From Aquanectria penicillioides (taxonomy: Eukaryota; Ascomycota; Sordariomycetes; Hypocreales; Nectriaceae), in NCBI GenBank assembly GCA_003415625.1, contig PYIU01000003.1:5766001-5830000 (forward strand): a stretch of 64,000 bases of DNA, in the 5' to 3' direction. The notes beneath the pieces were generated by a model. The model had not been told where the DNA came from. It worked only from the letters and a program-made list of their open reading frames with translations, and searched no databases. This document shows positions 30,307-63,910 of the stretch, in pieces; the stretch's first letter is position 1; each line of letters begins with the position of its first letter. Made by a program: the position numbers and the translations under genes.

Positions 30307-31821
30307 ATGGAGACTGTAGCTCCCATTGAAGTCATCCCCATCGACCAGCCAGTCGTTGCTGAGAAGCACGAGGCTGCCGTCCATGTCACAGAGTTGCCAG
30401 ACCTCGCTCCTCCCCTATTGCCCACCGAGCAGGTTGGTCCTAAGGGATGGGTCCGCAACATCTTCTTCTTCGAGCTGCCAGAGAACTACGACATCGAGGC
30501 CCTTTCAGAGATCCTGAGGACCAGCTACAAGTCCTTCAAGGACCGCACCCCCGTCGCGGGCTGTGAGGTTATCCCCATGGAGGGCAAGCAAGCTGGTCTC
30601 TTGCAATTCCACAAGTATGGTGAGGAGGTCGACGACTTTGCCGTCAAGGATCTCCGTGCCGAGGGTGCGTTCCCTACCTTTGCCGAGCTCAAGGCCCGAG
30701 GCTTCCCTGCCTCTGTCCTCGACCCCAATGTTGTTACCAAACGCGGTCTCGGTGGTGAGTGGCCAGGACTCGGTGACCATTTGACCGTCACTTTGATGCA
30801 GGCCAACTTCATCCGTGGTGGCCTGCTTCTCAACATGTTCTTCCTCCACGCCTACTGTGACCACACCTGCGCCTACAAGTTCACCGAGATCCTTGCCGAG
30901 GAGGTTCGACGTGCCCAGGGCATCCCCATCACCGAGCCTGCCGAGATCCCCTGGGAGGACCGCCAGAAGCTTATGAGGGTCTCTGGTAACAACCCTGACC
31001 TAGACTTGGCCCACCACGAGTACATCGAGCTCCCATTCACCCCCACCGAGGTGCCACCCAAGCTGGCCTCCCCTATCCACCACGGGCATGTCTGGTACTT
31101 GTCTCCCGAGAATATTGCTGCTCTCAAAGAGGAGGCCTCGCCAAAGAATGCTAAGTTGCTGAAGGATGAGAACCTCCCAGAGTTCATCTCCACCAATGAC
31201 GCCCTGACAGCCTTGATATGGCGATCCACAATGGCTGCTCAGCACCCTAGCCTCTCTGTACCTGACAGTGAGATTAGCTCCGATGTCCCAGTTGCCGGCG
31301 GCCCTTCGCAGGTAGCAATTGCCCTTGATGCTCGCCGACGAACTGGTGTCCCTGTTCACAAGCATCTTATTGGCAACATCCTCGGATTCGCCCCCGCCAT
31401 TTTCGACCTTAAGAAGGTCGTGAACGAGGCCTCGCTTGCTGACTTGGCCATTATCTGCCGCAGAGCTGTCGCCAAGGCTGAGGGTGTTTATCTTGACGAG
31501 CTTACCACTATCATTGAGGGTCTTCAGGATGTGAACCGCCTGGCTCCCGTTTGCTTCCTCGACATGCCTGGCAACCACATGATCCAGTCGACGTGGCGCG
31601 AGTTCCCCTTCTACGATCTTCAGTGGGGTCCGGCCTTCGGTGACAACATGCACGCCTTGAGGCCTCCAGCTTGTGGAGTTACTCACACCATGCAGATTGT
31701 TCTGCCTGATCCTAAGAAGGGTGGTGTGGAGGTGTGGGTTGGTGTCGAGAGCTCTTGCATGGATCGGCTCTTGAGCGACCCAGTCTGGAGAAAATATGCC
31801 GATGCCCCTGATGGCCTGTAA
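30307..31821 (+). CDS. BAHD/TRI101-like O-acyltransferase (PF02458 type)
   Basis: A single 504-aa exon. The catalytic motif H-x3-D is seen as HAYCD at residues 181-185, and the second BAHD-type motif, DFGWG in plants, appears as DLQWG at about 437-441. The length fits the fungal trichothecene-3-O-acetyltransferase-like branch, which transfers an acyl group from acyl-CoA to a hydroxyl of a secondary metabolite. Similar proteins serve either in biosynthesis or in self-protection. No polyketide, peptide or terpene synthase is present in this window, so the acceptor cannot be guessed. The gene is unusually codon-biased (C-ending codons, e.g. many AAG, GAG, CTC), which suggests high expression. 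There are no introns. Confidence 0.9.
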   Translation: METVAPIEVIPIDQPVVAEKHEAAVHVTELPDLAPPLLPTEQVGPKGWVRNIFFFELPENYDIEALSEILRTSYKSFKDRTPVAGCEVIPMEGKQAGLLQFHKYGEEVDDFAVKDLRAEGAFPTFAELKARGFPASVLDPNVVTKRGLGGEWPGLGDHLTVTLMQANFIRGGLLLNMFFLHAYCDHTCAYKFTEILAEEVRRAQGIPITEPAEIPWEDRQKLMRVSGNNPDLDLAHHEYIELPFTPTEVPPKLASPIHHGHVWYLSPENIAALKEEASPKNAKLLKDENLPEFISTNDALTALIWRSTMAAQHPSLSVPDSEISSDVPVAGGPSQVAIALDARRRTGVPVHKHLIGNILGFAPAIFDLKKVVNEASLADLAIICRRAVAKAEGVYLDELTTIIEGLQDVNRLAPVCFLDMPGNHMIQSTWREFPFYDLQWGPAFGDNMHALRPPACGVTHTMQIVLPDPKKGGVEVWVGVESSCMDRLLSDPVWRKYADAPDGL

Positions 31822-32497: not shown

Positions 32498-32511
32498 TAT
32501 ATTATTAATTA
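32498..32511 (+). promoter_or_regulatory. TATA-like element upstream of the tRNA gene
   Basis: TATATTATTAATTA lies 26 to 39 bp before the first tRNA nucleotide. AT-rich boxes at about -30 help TFIIIB positioning in fission yeast and many fungi. A CAACCAA motif follows at 32526-32532, 5-11 nt before the tRNA; CAA is a common fungal Pol III start site. Confidence 0.55.
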
Positions 32512-32561
32512 GTTGCCAGCGCTTTCAACCAATGAAAGCAATTTGGCGCAGTGGAAGCGCG

Positions 32562-32615
32562 GTATGTCTATCTCACAACCTCGACGGTCTTCGTTCGATT
32601 ACTAACTTGTCCCAG
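32562..32615 (+). other. Intron 1 of the initiator tRNA, spliceosomal type (54 nt)
   Basis: Begins GTATGT and ends CCCAG. A perfect yeast-type branch sequence TACTAAC sits at 32600-32606, with the branch A 10 nt before the end. Length and signals match the mRNA introns in this window. It interrupts the tRNA between the D stem (position 26) and anticodon stem (27). It also contains GTTCGATTA (32593-32601), resembling a B box. Confidence 0.85.
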
Positions 32616-32635
32616 CCGGGCTCATAACCCGGAGG

Positions 32636-32688
32636 GTAAGCCTCACATTCGACTCCTCGTCATGAAGGTCGACTAACAAGCAACTCAG
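32636..32688 (+). other. Intron 2 of the initiator tRNA, spliceosomal type (53 nt)
   Basis: Begins GTAAGC, ends AACTCAG, and has branch sequence GACTAAC at 32671-32677 with the branch A 12 nt before the end. It splits the variable loop after position 46 (AGG|TC). Confidence 0.85.
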
Positions 32689-32718
32689 TCGCACGATCGA
32701 AACGTGCAATTGCTATAC

Positions 32719-32745
32719 ATACCCTTCTAGGGTATCATCTTTTTT
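32719..32745 (+). terminator. Hairpin plus T6, likely Pol III terminator
   Basis: ATACCC (32719-32724), a 5-nt loop and GGGTAT (32730-32735) form a 6-bp hairpin just after the tRNA 3' end. A run of six T follows at 32740-32745, enough for RNA polymerase III termination in fungi. Confidence 0.6.
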
Positions 32746-56686: not shown

Positions 56687-59600
56687 CTAGGCTGCCTTCC
56701 GCCCCTTTTTCTTCATCTCCGCCGTCCAGGCATCCTCGAACAAGGTCGGTTTAGGAGACAGATCGGCTGGTCGAATAGCCAGACGCCGCACAACCTGGAA
56801 TGCACCAGTGCCGACACTCATAGTTTGGCCCATAATGATACCCTCGCTGACACCTTCAATCTGGTCTGCTTTCATACCCGCGGCAGCGTCAAACAAGTGA
56901 TCTGGCGTCTTTTCAAACGAAGCCAAATGCAATACACTGTCTCTCATCTTTGAGAGCCCGAATCTAGTGATGCCAAGAACTTCTCCCTTGAAAGTCATGA
57001 CGTCTGCAAGAAGTTGCATATGACGGAGATCGATACCCATGTGCCCCATAACCTCGTTGATTTCGTTTGCGATGGATGTCCTAGCAGCCTCAATACCAAG
57101 AACTTCATTGCACTCCATAACACTGTTGGATGAGACCTTTGTGCCAATCACACCTTCGGTATTCATGCATGCTCGAAGGCCGTATCCCTCCACCAAAACT
57201 CGGTGGGTGCTTTCTTCAGAAGTCTCAATCAGAGCTCGTGTGGCTTCTGAGTAGCCAGAGATTGCCACGGCGGGAAGTCCTCGACGAAGGAAGTTCGCTC
57301 GAAGAAGCATATCCCCAGAATCCTCCGCAGCTTTGGTGGTTCTGACAGTTCTCTTTGCTGGCATCTCGCTGGTGTCCCTCACACGAATGACAATTCGATC
57401 GCCATTGATGGTTACATCACCCGGCTGTATTTTGAGCTTCTTGTCCTTGCAAATCGCCTGTGCGATGTCGAAAACACCAATGCCCAAGTGCATATCTGAG
57501 AGAGCGTCTGAATCGATCTGAAGAACCACATTGCCCTCGTCAGAGCGCCATTCGTCCTCGACAAAGTGGAGAACGTCTGAGAGAAATGTCTTCTCAATAC
57601 GCGCTTTGACGACCTTCGCGGCTTCGATTTGCTGATCGTTGAGTAGCGGGCAGCTAATAACCGGCGTGCTAATCAGCTTAGACGCGTTGATGATCTCCTT
57701 GATTCGAGGTACACCTTGAGTGATACTCATACCAGCGACACCAGCAAAATGGAAAGTCTTCAAGGTCATCTGGGTACCGGGCTCACCGATAGATTGCGCT
57801 CCGACAGCACCGACAGCATGACCGGGCTCAACATGAGCTTTCTTGTACTTCTCAAGACACAATCTGATAAAGAGTCTCAAAGTTGTGGCCGAAACCTTGG
57901 CTGTTCGATCAGCATGGTTTTGGGCTGTCAGGCTAGGCACCTTGCCATCTTCAAAGCCAGCTAGTTTTCGGACCTTTTCCAGCTTCGAAGCTAGACTCTC
58001 GACATGGCTTTCAATTTCTCTCAGGAATTTGCGCCCACCTTCATGCTCATCAATGCCATAGTTGCTATCATCCTCATAGTCAAGCTCTTCCTCGTGCACT
58101 AAACCCTTGCGTGGAAATCGCTTGCGCTCCATCTCCAGCATCGAATCACGCAACTCCCGGATCTTGTCAGGTGATAATGAGGGCTCATCATTGTTCCATG
58201 TGATGGTTTCCGCATGGCTCCATGTCCTCTTAAAATTGACTGGGTGATCATTACCTTCCATTTCATCCGGATCAAGCCTGTCGGCTCCATACTGGAACTG
58301 TACGATACTGCCGCCAGACGTGCGAACTGTATCATCGTACTGGGTAGATAGATCCTCGAGCGATTTCATCAGTCGGCGAGACATGTATCCGGTCTCTGCA
58401 GTCTTGACAGCAGTATCTACCAGACCTTCTCGACCAGACATGGCGTGAAAGAGAAATTCCGTGGGGAGAAGGCCAGTGTAGAAACTGTTCTTGACGAAAC
58501 CCTTTGAAGGTGGCTGACGAGCGTTCTTGTGGAAATGGGGCAGACTTCGATCTTGGAAACCATCAGCCACTCGTGAGCCACCGATAATTTGCTGACCGAC
58601 AAGGGCAACCATCTGAGCGACGTTGATTTCCGAACCCTTGGAGCCCGAGTTGGACATGATCAGCGGGGCGTTATTTCGACTCAAGGTGTCAATACAGTAT
58701 GCGCCGGCTGACTGTCGGACTTTACTGAGGATACCAGAGATGGAGTTCTCCAAAGTCTGCTCCATATTGCAACCAGGGGCCTTTTCTAGCTTTCCCGCCT
58801 TGAACAGTTCAATAAGTTCATCGGACTTCTTATAAGCGGCCGATACGAGATCTTCTTTGGCCAGTGTCAAGCTGTCAGTTGGGTAAACATCACCAACACC
58901 GATAGAGAAGCCTCGGTTCGTCAGATACCGGGCACAGAGTCTGGCCAGGCGGTTCATAGCTTGGACCGCTTCATCAGGACCATAATCTCGGAGAATAACG
59001 TAAAAGATAGAGTCTTTCTTGCCAGCTCCAACAGTGGACTTATCCATCGATCCGCACATGACCTCGGAATTTCGAATCACAAGCCAGCCATCGGCAGGGG
59101 TCATGTCGGGAGCCTGCCCTTGGACGAGCTTGAAGGTTCTGCATTTCGCCTCTAGGTTGATCTTGACCGGCGACTTCTTGTTTGGTCTGATCAAAACGCT
59201 GAAAACCTGCTTACCTGTCCACATAGCCTCTGGCTTGATGATTGCGGGCGGGGGCAGGTCTAGTGGCGTCTGACTGTCCAACATATGCATGCAGATGTAG
59301 GTGAAAGTCTTCCGATCGAAGAAGCTATCCTTGCTGCTTATTAGAAACGCGGCCGTGATGAAATCTTGAGTTGCTGCAATAATCGGTTCACCATTTTTCG
59401 GGGTGGTCAGGTTGTGCTTGACTCCCATGAGGTTGATGGCTTCAGCGCGGGCTTCCTCCGTCTGTGGAACATGCAAATTCATCTCATCTCCGTCAAAATC
59501 GGCATTATAAGGGTTACAAACACACTCATTGAGTCGGAAAGTCCTCCACGGGCGAACCTTGACAAGATGGCTCATGATACTCAGCTTATGGAGTGATGGC

Positions 59601-61218
59601 TGACGGTTGAATAGAACAATATCACCGTCCTCGAGATGACGCTCAACAATATCTCCGAAGACAAGGTTACGGGCAACCATATCCCTGTTACCGAATTTGA
59701 GAGATATCTTATAACCACCTTCGTCCTGTTTAAGGACCTGCTGAGCACCCGGCCAAACATCGGGCCCGTTTTTGATGCATTGTCGTAGCTTTTCAATATT
59801 GTGTCTCTGAACCCTTTCCGGGTAGGTCAAGTTCTTGGCAACAAGCTGAGGAACAGCTACTTGGTCAACTCCGAGGTTGGGATCGGGGGAAATGACAGTA
59901 CGGCCCGAGAAGTCGACTCGCTTTCCAGAAAGATTTCCTCGAAATCGTCCCTGTTTACCTTTGAGTCGCTGGCAGAAGCCTCTCGTCGTCTTTCCAAATC
60001 CGGGCTGCTGAAGTCCTGGTACATCACTATTGACATACATTGCAATTTGAGTTTGGAGGTATTCCCACTGCTCCATGATGGTCTGAAGAGGAGAGCCCCT
60101 CTGCAATGCTGAACGAATCATACCGCTGACCCACACAATGTCTGCAAGTTTTGTCGTGAGGTCATCCTCATTACTGGCATTGTCTTGAGCAACTGAAGGT
60201 CGGATACAGACCGGGGGAGCCGGGAGGAATTGCCAAATGAACATTTCAGGTCGACCCTCAGTGGGGTCCAAACCAAGAAGTTCACAGTCGGTGGGGCTAA
60301 TCGATTTGAAAAGATTGAGGACCCTCAGTGGGTTGAGGTCCTCCATCGCTTTGCGCAAATGCTTTTCGATCTCAGGGTTTTCGCGACGGGCCTCGGTGAA
60401 GGAGGCGTCAAATTTAACCTTGCTCTCTGGGGGTACCTTCTTGGCAGACGTAGATTTGTTGTAGAAGGAGAATTTGTCGTGGGCGAGTTTGAGGACGCCA
60501 ATCTTGCGAATTTGGCCGTTGACGGAGCTGCAGTAAGGGCATGTTCGAGCCTTGCGGCATTGCTCGTTGATCTTCTTGCATATCTGGGTTCGACGGAGGT
60601 TATCCAGGTACGGGCGTCGCAGCTCTTTGAGGAAGGCTCGTCGATCCTGCTCTTCAAGCAGTACACGACCACAGTCCTAAAACATAGTTAGAGAATGGGG
60701 TTTTCAAAGCCAGCTAGCAGGTCCAAGTACACACCTTGCAAATATCTTGAAGGATCCTCATTATGAAGCGCAAATATCCCACATGGAATGCGGGCAGTGG
60801 CAGCCTCACGTAGCCAAAGTGGCCATTGCAATTCTGCAGCGCTTCCTGGCAGGTGGAACATTTCCCCAGCTTACTCGATGTACCCTGCAATTGAAAGTCG
60901 GGTCAGTTGCCTCGCGGCATTCTATTACCGATGGAACTGAAGACCTTTACTCACCAGTTGAGGGTCGAGAGGGCCATGGCGATAAGGAGCGCGGTTGTTC
61001 TCGATATCGTAGAGCAGTCGGTTGGAAACTTCAACCACGGCTTGGTTTGCGATATCTTGATTGGATCTGCGAAGCAGTGCCGATGGTTAGCAGGTAAGGA
61101 AACGATATTGAACATGGCGGTCTGGTCCTCACTGGATGCCGAATTTGATCCCACGGAAGCGCTTGGGCAACCTGTCAACAAGCTGCTGCTTGACGGGGCT
61201 GTCGGTTGAGTTGGCCAT
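56687..61218 (-). CDS. rpc1: RNA polymerase III largest subunit RPC1 (RPC160)
   Basis: Four exons: 61218-61133, 61066-60955, 60884-60735 and 60676-56687, giving 1445 aa, normal for RPC1. The zinc ribbon appears as CSTCQEALQNCNGHFG, followed by a second Cys cluster (CRKARTCPYC). The catalytic metal motif NADFDGDEMNLH lies near residues 507-518 and the bridge-helix/trigger-loop region EPGTQMTLKTFHFAGVAGMSITQGVPRIKEI follows. The C-terminal part carries the Pol III-specific VMTFKGEVLGITRFGLSKM and FEKTPDHLFDAA blocks, and there is no heptad-repeat CTD. It forms the catalytic core that transcribes tRNA, 5S and U6 genes. Housekeeping gene. Confidence 0.97.
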
Positions 61219-63910
61219 GGTTGGCTTTTGTCGCAAATCCGGACGGCCCAGCTAAACGTTCAAGGGGACTGGGAGGGCCGGGACACGGTTACCCGTGCGA
61301 TTTTGGCTATATCGAAGCCCCTGTGTCGCCGGGGCGCGATCGTGGTGCGCTGTTCGATGGCTGTTCGATGGCTGGCGCTGGGATTATCTGGATGAGTCTT
61401 AAGGTGGGTTACGAAGCGACGCGGGAATCGCAAAAATTTCAGGCCGAGCAACGCAGGCATTCGCGCCAGAGGACCGACAAGGATAAGCAGCTCAGCAGTC
61501 TGGTGGGGGTCGGGGACTGCCCCGCATTCCCGCTGGGGAAAGGCGGGCTTGGAACCAGCGCTAAGTGTAACGCAGCTCTTGATGGTCAGATGGAAATGTG
61601 AGCTACGTCGTGTTGACGAAGCATTTTGCTGGTTATTGGGTCTTAAATGGTATTAGAAGGTTTAATTGACCAGAGTAGCTTTCGATTAGTTTTTTCCCTT
61701 TCGTTCGTTCTTTGGCCATCTCAGCTCTTGGAGTCATTCGCTGATCTAGCAGATAGTGGGTTTCACCCCCAAGGGCGAGGCTTGAGTGTTTATGCAACGG
61801 CTCTTGCCAATTTTAATACAAGAAATGATCAAATAAACGCCATACAACCATTTTGATCTTTGGGATGGTAAACATGTATGCGAACGCCAGAGAGAATGTG
61901 GCTCATCTATTACCCTCAATTCTCCGGAATCGTGACGACAGCAAGTTACCACCGCCTGTCTCTTTCGAATCACTCAAACACCCATCACACGCTAAATGCA
62001 AAGGAGGGCCATGAAGTATGTCCCATTCTACTGCACTGAGAAAAAAAAAGACTTGTAATATTTTGTACGAAGCATGTTCTAGAAAGTCCCGACGTCGCAC
62101 CGTAATTGGAAAATATGAGGGCCTACGGACTGGACTGCATACCTACAATAAAATATAAATAAATAAAATGTAAACCACGATAGATTTATATGACGAAAAT
62201 ATGAACAAAACCCACAGCAATACAACCAAGACGTGTAACGTAGGGCATGTTTGGTAGAGATTTGTGGCACTCCGTCACTTGTAGTGATAGTCATTGCTGC
62301 TGGATCTTTTGCTAGTGCGGTAGCTGGTAAATACTCAAACAGCGACTTATACCCACGCTCCTGATACATCTTTACCAGAAATTCCAAATGAATGAAATGA
62401 AGCCTTGCCCGGATAGCCGACCGGCAATGACGTGCTGAGAGTGCCAAGCCACACCGAGACATTGCTGAGACGGTTCATTGTGGAATAGGGAGCAGAATTG
62501 AGAGGTTTGCAGGGCCGAATGAGCCCAGTTCCTTGCACATAACATCAATATTTTCTGTTTCACACTCCTTGGCACTGCATTGACTAGTCCTCCTTCTACA
62601 AGGGTATGATGTGGTCTGCTTCAATCCTGACGCAATGACGTGGGCCTGCACGAGGTCATTATTCTCGACTTGCAACATTGCATGTTCTGTATAGTTTAAG
62701 CTTATTTTTAATTCAAATATTAAAAAAAAATTCATGCTTTGAAATTTCGTCAGCGTTCGGTATCCAAACGATGTACCGCTTGAAGCATAACCTGATGCTG
62801 AACGTTTGATGCAAATGATCAAGCCACTCAATAAGACCACCAAGCTCTTCTAAACTGGGTTTGGCTTGCACAAATTGGTATGGGTTACACCTTGATGTAT
62901 CATCTTTACCACCTCCTGACGTTTCTCCAGTGGAGGACATCCGATTTTGATGCCTGAAATACTTAGTGACATGGACGGACAAACAAAAAGCTTACCAGCC
63001 GCGTGTCTTCCTTTGACGCGTTTCTCCTCAATTTCACGGCCATGAACTACAAGCTAGAGATTAATGCTAGTATACACCCTATACTTGAGCCCAGCAAGTA
63101 GCAATGCACCGCGAGTACAAATCCCCTTTCTTCGTTCCATCTGGAGCAAATGTCAATCAAGACTGCATGAGTAGCTTCTAGTTTGCCTGACTGCGCGTGC
63201 TCTGCACAACTTGCCGAAACCCTTGTCGTCCTAGGATGCCTTGCGATGGGCCGGCTGGGCGGAGAGCCTTGATATGGCTTCGACGCCAAAAAGGGCAAGC
63301 AGGATGCTGCCCGGGATATTGTTATGCCTCGACGAGCTGAAAAAAAGCCTACACCGGGGCTAATTACTTTGAGATGCAGGAAGGCCGGTAGAAGCTGCCT
63401 CGCGTTGACATTCTGCGATGGTGGAGTCGCACAAGGAGCAGAGCCTCTCCAGGCTGAGGTCAGAGGCTCAATCCAGTCTTCACAATGACGGAGCCGAAGA
63501 TGTTCAATCATTGGGTTGTGGACAATTGGATATTACAGAGGACGAGTCTTTTGACATTTGCTTATAAGGAAATATGGACCAGGAATTTGGTGAGAGAAGA
63601 TGAACATGGGTAAAATGCGATCAGTCGAGATCAAGTCAATTTCAATGTGCTATGGAGCCGCTTTTCTAAGAAACGAATAATTGCCTTCCCCGTGCGACCC
63701 AGGATATATCCCATTCCACAAGGTGCATCAGAACGCCGAATCAGACCGAGCCAAGGCATCAGTGAAAAACAAAACAAAACGAAAAAAAAAAAAGAAAACC
63801 CCCTCCAAAGAGTATTGGTCATTGAAAGAATCGTTGCGCAGTCATGAGAAGTATTTACTTGAGAAAATATATATCGTGAAAGTTAAGAAAGAAAGGAAAC
63901 GGCACGCCAC
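61219..63910. other. Intergenic, possible gene remnants
   Basis: About 2.7 kb. The first 0.3 kb is the RPC1 promoter. On the minus strand at about 62470-63050 there are overlapping frames (for example one containing KPSLEELGGLIEWLDHLHQT) that look somewhat protein-like, and a 154-codon frame at 63047-63511, but none has a recognisable family or a complete spliced model. They may be remnants or chance frames. The T-rich and A-rich stretches near 62041 and 63781 are simple repeats. Confidence 0.4.

Follow-up and report, generated by a model that had tools for sequence, protein, structure and literature searches.

Initiator tRNA-Met genes of a hypocrealean fungus carry two U2-type introns each and are probably matured by the spliceosome

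Introduction

Can a nuclear tRNA be matured by the machinery that splices mRNA? The question is raised by a locus within a 64-kb stretch of fungal DNA (the whole stretch that was analysed, hereafter the window), in which the parts of an initiator tRNA-Met gene are held apart by two inserts resembling mRNA introns. Nuclear tRNA introns are taught as separate from mRNA introns, with one site and one endonuclease, and an essential tRNA with two mRNA-type introns in every copy found would, if the reading is true, break that rule. It would also mean that a short tRNA precursor is a possible substrate of the spliceosome, and that translation initiation is tied to splicing. The cited part of a review places nuclear tRNA introns exclusively at position 37/38, with exceptions mediated by bulge-helix-bulge (BHB) motifs in unicellular algae and nucleomorphs (PMC3978253).

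The host is a hypocrealean fungus, probably of the Nectriaceae, judging from its closest proteins. For the proline racemase in the window the closest named relatives are those of Neonectria and Fusarium lateritium at 85-88%, next to an unnamed protein at 89%, and for RPC1, the largest RNA polymerase III subunit (500 residues compared), they include Ilyonectria and Fusarium at 88%. The proximity of the RPC1 gene to the split tRNA gene is probably a coincidence. The genome searched comprises 53,758,348 bases (53.8 Mb) in 13 contigs.

Results

The split gene in the window

At window 32537-32715 (+), blocks of 25, 20 and 27 nt, namely AGCAATTTGGCGCAGTGGAAGCGCG (exon 1), CCGGGCTCATAACCCGGAGG (exon 2) and TCGCACGATCGAAACGTGCAATTGCTA (exon 3), join into a 72-nt initiator tRNA-Met with perfect pairing. 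They are separated by inserts of 54 and then 53 nt of the GT...CTAAC...CAG type (Table 1). These lengths and coordinates are as an initial annotation, made from the window sequence, had given them, and the initiator marks that it listed are present in the joined sequence. The CAT anticodon, A1-T72, A54, A60 and the four stems are found in the spliced form of 6/6 genomic copies (see below), as are the three G-C pairs that end the anticodon stem; A1-T72, the three G-C pairs, A54 and A60 are what we take to be the identity marks of a eukaryotic cytosolic initiator tRNA-Met.

ARAGORN recognised the joined 72 nt as tRNA-Met(CAT) with four paired stems, both alone and when 100 nt of the genuine flanking sequence were kept at either end. 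Run without its intron option, it found no tRNA in the unspliced sequence or in forms from which a single insert had been taken out; with that option, it assigned implausible identities (Asp, Phe, Val) to these unspliced and half-spliced forms. No tRNA was reported by ARAGORN for the raw 64-kb window. No Rfam family matched in the window at gathering scores, and a search of the 651 bases surrounding the split gene yielded none with E up to 10.

Table 1. Coordinates of the split initiator tRNA-Met gene, its neighbours and related loci (window positions unless prefixed by a contig)
Feature	Position	Strand	Remarks
Acyltransferase, single open frame, upstream of split tRNA	30307-31821	+	Pfam TRI-like_N, Transferase
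TATA-like AT-rich stretch, 26-39 nt upstream of tRNA	32498..32511	+	sequence; role putative
Exon 1, tRNA-iMet positions 1-26 (5' acceptor strand, D arm, G26)	32537..32561	+	six loci identical
A-box-like internal Pol III promoter element TGGCGCAGTGG	32544..32554	+	sequence
Intron 1, 54 nt, GTATGT...TACTAAC...CAG, between tRNA positions 26 and 27	32562..32615	+	sequence
TACTAAC, branch-site-like, intron 1; 10 nt after branch A	32600..32606	+	CTAAC, same distance, 6/6 copies
Exon 2, tRNA positions 27-46 (anticodon arm with CAT, variable loop start)	32616..32635	+	six loci identical
Intron 2, 53 nt, GTAAGC...GACTAAC...CAG, between positions 46 and 47	32636..32688	+	sequence
GACTAAC, branch-site-like, intron 2; 12 nt after branch A	32671..32677	+	CTAAC in 4/6 copies
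Exon 3, tRNA positions 47-73 (T arm with A54, 3' acceptor strand, A73)	32689..32715	+	six loci identical
B-box-like internal promoter element, initiator form, CGATCGAAACG	32694..32704	+	sequence
Trailer, Pol III terminator-like: 6-bp hairpin (32719-32735, by eye) and T6 run (32740-32745)	32719..32745	+	
RPC1, largest RNA polymerase III subunit	56687-61221	-	three short introns near start
Cluster of three split initiator genes, two + and one -	C6:3124841-3126487	+/-	379-base query
Contig-1 copy of split initiator gene	C1:2725068-2725317	-	379-base query
U6 snRNA gene (Rfam match)	C1:3831993		match starts inside intron
Intron of this U6 gene	C1:3831966-3832019		immediately before ACAGAGA box
Second U6-like gene	C7:1730381-1730484		without intron

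Six copies with identical exons and diverged introns

A 379-base query led to six places in the genome: the window, a group of three within 1.7 kb on contig 6, a further one elsewhere on that contig, and a single one on contig 1. Exact matches to GGGCTCATAACCC occur in these six genes and nowhere else in the genome. Introner-like repeats were rejected, as the 379-nt query matched only these six loci.

The exons are identical base for base in 6/6 loci (72/72 nt), and the insertion sites, 26/27 and 46/47, are common to all six genes. The introns vary from 52 to 55 nt at the first site and from 53 to 60 nt at the second, with a mean pairwise identity of 0.54 and 0.59, respectively, against 0.25 and 0.23 for shuffled sequence. 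Only 9/66 intron-interior columns are invariant, and under an intron-like drift the 72/72 invariant exon positions would have P ~5e-63 (a simple independent-sites estimate). Judged by these figures, the inserts of the six copies are of common descent and well diverged, with every exon base kept. The initial annotation had argued that perfect pairing would hardly persist by chance in a gene without function; since five further copies in the same genome carry identical exons, chance assembly of tRNA-like blocks was rejected. Its proposed check on homologous loci came out in the same direction when applied to the five paralogues, in which the stems are perfect and the intron positions unchanged.

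The 200 nt upstream have a mean pairwise identity of 0.18 (0.22 shuffled; highest pair 0.37) and the 200 nt downstream one of 0.25 (0.25 shuffled; highest pair 0.34). Average flank similarity thus does not exceed that of shuffled sequence, and conservation is essentially confined to the tRNA gene. On this ground a conserved Pol II host transcript was rejected, although in the pair of window and contig-1 copy the match extends 63 nt beyond the tRNA.

Intact initiator genes and other split tRNAs

Patterns of 25 and 27 bases across both exon junctions, allowing <=3 mismatches, gave no match in the 53.8 Mb assembly. With the Rfam tRNA model RF00005, 63 of 2343 candidates were scored and 62 matches listed; among those 62, all of them called by ARAGORN, the CAT anticodon occurs in three elongator genes only. 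The joined 72-nt query also gave no match in the genome, but with 0 candidates at the first step, and is weaker evidence than the junction patterns. The case against intact initiator copies depends above all on the two junction patterns and on the completeness of the assembly, with RF00005 in a supporting role. A search for further tRNA-iMet copies, as the initial annotation had suggested, thus turned up five more split copies and no intact one; the split genes are probably the only source of initiator tRNA in this fungus. All six split genes were missed by ARAGORN and are absent from the matches listed for the Rfam tRNA model, a warning that tRNA finders miss split genes of this kind.

Other tRNAs with spliceosomal introns were sought by several screens. 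The first gave 41 matches (78 in the reversed control), 11 of which are one repeated sequence, interpreted as the anticodon arm of a tRNA-Val; closer reading of four others showed nothing tRNA-like, and the remainder were judged from the printed match only. Since the initiator B box does not conform to its pattern, this screen is without a positive control. Further screens, with a pattern that excluded the initiator D loop, yielded 3 and 0 matches (controls 2 and 1). The last gave 10 rows (15 in the control), of which 7 were the six initiator genes and 3 were judged from the printed match. No other split tRNA was found in these partial genome screens. Scans of a prokaryote collection (0 and 1 matches) and a virus collection (0, 7 and 2) gave ten matches that all read as bacterial or phage tRNAs and, given the nature of those collections, provide no evidence either way on split tRNAs.

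Splice signals of the inserts

All 12 introns start with GT and end with AG (10 CAG, 2 TAG). Their 5' splice sites, GTATGT (3), GTACGT (3), GTAAGT (1) and GTAAGC (5), match U1, and a YTRAY branch site lies close to the 3' end in 11/12. In intron 1 all six copies have CTAAC, and the branch A is followed by 10 nt in each; in intron 2 the site is CTAAC in 4/6 (12-14 nt) and TTAAC in 1/6 (16 nt). Intron 2 of the contig-1 copy has CTTAC near its end and a sole YTRAY (CTGAC) 35 nt from the end, and this copy may splice poorly.

The RPC1 introns, three in number and located by aligning the gene with a homologue, measure 66, 70 and 58 nt, with the 5' sites GTGAGG, GTGAGT and GTGTGT, the branch sites CTAAC, CTGAC and CTAAC, and YAG ends. 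The inserts had been described as being like the mRNA introns in the window; this holds for their signals, and with respect to length the RPC1 introns (one gene, three introns) are slightly longer. Because of their ends, their branch sites and the comparison with RPC1, the inserts read as ordinary U2-type introns in nearly everything that sequence can reveal.

Intron position and BHB geometry

At the real junctions the strict BHB geometry leaves a central helix of 0-2 of 4 bp in 12/12 introns. When a shift of 1 nt to either side is allowed, 3 of 4 pairs form in 7 introns and 2 of 4 in 5, but never 4, and 62% of random junction pairs reach at least 3 of 4. The insertion sites of all six copies, 26/27 and 46/47, differ from the 37/38 expected for TSEN. 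Intron position and the absence of a strict BHB in 12/12 thus contradict removal by TSEN, and both agree with the initial annotation, which had not expected TSEN to cut at these sites.

Introns of the usual kind do occur in this genome. With the intron option, ARAGORN assigned an intron at position 34-40 to 21/22 tRNA matches examined, although some isotypes and exact positions among these 22 calls look unreliable and forced fits can arise with this option, the split initiator being an example. Each of the elongator tRNA-Met genes, of which there are three (L120, L121 and L122), is 105 nt long, with introns of 31, 31 and 14 nt, respectively (ARAGORN), and these introns are of the ordinary anticodon-loop type. 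The two methionine tRNAs of the fungus are therefore split by two different kinds of intron.

Transcription signals

TGGCGCAGTGG and CGATCGAAACG presumably match the A-box and B-box consensus, respectively. At -40 to -21 the AT content is 0.67-0.70 in the six split genes and 0.52 in 30 other tRNA genes, a small sample. The first T4+ run follows the six tRNAs at +4, +5, +11, +25, +28 and +28 nt (+25 in the window), and the 30 best-scoring other tRNA genes have theirs at +2 to +36 nt. Within 28 nt, a T4+ run is present in 6/6 split genes against 9.8% of 14,400 random flank positions, and a T6+ run in 6/6 against 1.6% of the same number. T4+ runs inside the gene number 0/6 in split genes and 1/30 in other tRNA genes. 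TTTT is absent from the 12 introns, which is not significant by itself, as 15% of shuffles likewise lack it, and it is present in one of the three RPC1 introns. By its layout of A and B boxes, a T-run and no internal T4+, this is a type 2 Pol III gene, which would be transcribed as such.

The unspliced RNA was also folded. In the predicted minimum-energy structures the acceptor and T stems form in 6/6 copies, the anticodon stem in 5/6 and the D stem in 3/6, with predicted mean pairing probabilities of 0.63-0.93 for the acceptor stem and 0.83-0.99 for the T stem. Since the acceptor and T stems are predicted to form before splicing, RNase P and RNase Z could act before or after it.

An mRNA-type intron in U6

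Other fungi also carry mRNA-type introns in their U6 genes. In the present genome, one of two U6 matches contains a 54-nt intron of this type, GTAAGT...CTAACATCCATTCAG, directly before ACAGAGAAGATTAGC. The second, U6-like gene is divergent and reads straight through; it shares the upstream TTATAATGC motif with the first, has a T-run, and may represent either a variant of U6 or a copy in decay. The cited parts of two papers describe S. pombe U6 as a Pol III transcript from which the spliceosome removes an mRNA-type intron (PMC8917221; PMC10484740). The likeness to the split initiator genes lies in a small structural Pol III RNA with a short mRNA-type intron; unlike U6, the host here is a tRNA, and it has two introns, both in every copy found. 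A reverse-splicing origin has been proposed for the U6 intron, which lies near catalytic nucleotides, but it does not carry over as directly to a tRNA.

Discussion

It is very probable that the six loci are functional initiator tRNA-Met genes with two U2-type introns each, transcribed by Pol III and matured by the spliceosome. We infer transcription, the splicing agent and use in translation from what can be read at the loci themselves, that is, the gene structure in six copies, the identity of the exons, the divergence of introns that keep their signals, the layout of the terminators, and the lack of an intact junction in the assembly and of a strict BHB. The initial annotation had read the window gene as spliceosome-matured, and this reading gains support from the paralogues with their perfect stems and unchanged intron positions, from the failure to find an intact copy, and from the position and BHB data that contradict TSEN. 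Scarcely less probable is the wider claim that all cytosolic initiator tRNA of the fungus is matured in this way. This would be a third splicing route for nuclear tRNA beside TSEN and self-splicing, and it would make each round of translation initiation need pre-mRNA splicing factors and link Pol III output to spliceosome activity.

In the proposed pathway, the A box of exon 1 and the B box of exon 3 would direct Pol III to produce a precursor of ~180 nt plus trailer, ending at the T-run. Both introns would be removed as lariats by the spliceosome, as is the mRNA-type intron of fission-yeast U6, and the ends would be finished by RNase P, RNase Z and CCA addition, where trimming could precede splicing. 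Because the fungus probably has no other initiator tRNA, translation initiation would depend on the spliceosome.

The spliceosome might instead act on a capped, short non-coding Pol II RNA from which the same tRNA is then excised. Spliceosomes normally act on capped Pol II RNA, and TTTT is not significantly depleted in the introns, both of which would suit such a precursor. However, the conserved unit is the tRNA itself, in flanks that on average resemble shuffled sequence, its A- and B-box-like sequences are intact, and T-runs follow at +4 to +28 in 6/6 copies, as in other tRNA genes, with no T4+ inside. Moreover, S. pombe U6 demonstrates that a Pol III RNA can be spliced, and we regard a Pol II precursor as improbable.

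Much less probable still is that TSEN acts here at non-canonical positions, as in Cyanidioschyzon merolae, and that the mRNA-like signals are accidental. It is true that other tRNA genes of the genome, including elongator Met, have TSEN-type introns, and the cited part of the review reports ectopic tRNA introns of C. merolae that are removed via BHB motifs, as well as many ectopic nucleomorph introns without a defined BHB (PMC3978253). Against this, the sites are 26/27 and 46/47 instead of 37/38, the strict geometry gives 0-2 of 4 pairs in 12/12 and the shifted one 2-3 of 4, no better than random, and GT, AG and branch sites are kept while the rest of the intron drifts, which TSEN would not require. 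Equally hard to credit is that the six loci are dead or dying and that the working initiator tRNA stems from an intact gene missing in the assembly. Assemblies can miss stretches, but dead copies would have decayed, whereas the 72 exon bases are kept in 6/6 while the introns differ at nearly half their positions. Maturation by the spliceosome from a Pol III transcript accordingly remains our preferred reading.

How does this arrangement compare with known systems? Spliceosomal introns are found in nuclear rRNA genes of lichen-forming ascomycetes, which likewise are structural non-coding RNAs, although transcribed by Pol I and not Pol III tRNAs. Canonical TSEN introns also interrupt nuclear tRNA genes, including those of this genome, and must be removed before the tRNA can function, but they lie at position 37/38 and have other signals and a BHB. 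At 52-60 nt, the inserts are far too short for a group I intron. According to the cited part of the tRNAscan-SE 2.0 paper (PMC8450103), such introns interrupt bacterial tRNA-fMet, also an initiator tRNA and likewise missed by a tRNA finder. They are, however, self-splicing ribozymes in the anticodon loop. Several introns per tRNA, at unusual positions, occur in C. merolae and archaeal tRNA genes according to the cited part of the review (PMC3978253); those are BHB-mediated, unlike the present ones with their spliceosomal signals and no strict BHB.

The same part of the tRNAscan-SE 2.0 paper lists 6/173 eukaryotes (incomplete fungal genomes excluded) without a predicted CAT subtype, all of them explained by mislabelled iMet (PMC8450103). 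From this, the split state would not seem to be widespread in well-studied fungi. Searches of the open-licence literature brought up no nuclear tRNA gene described as having a spliceosomal intron. The intron family is known and so, from the U6 precedent, is a spliced Pol III RNA; for a tRNA made this way we know of no earlier case.

As to the origin of the introns, initiator tRNA is a usual primer of LTR retrotransposons, and it is therefore plausible, as a hypothesis, that an initiator tRNA was reverse-spliced, reverse-transcribed and recombined into the gene.

A minor observation concerns the start of intron 2 (window 32636-32645), which reads GTAAGCCTCA in 5/6 copies and GTACGTCTCA in one. 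This conservation seems to go beyond the needs of splicing, and around the 5' splice site CCTC could pair with the GAGG that closes exon 2.
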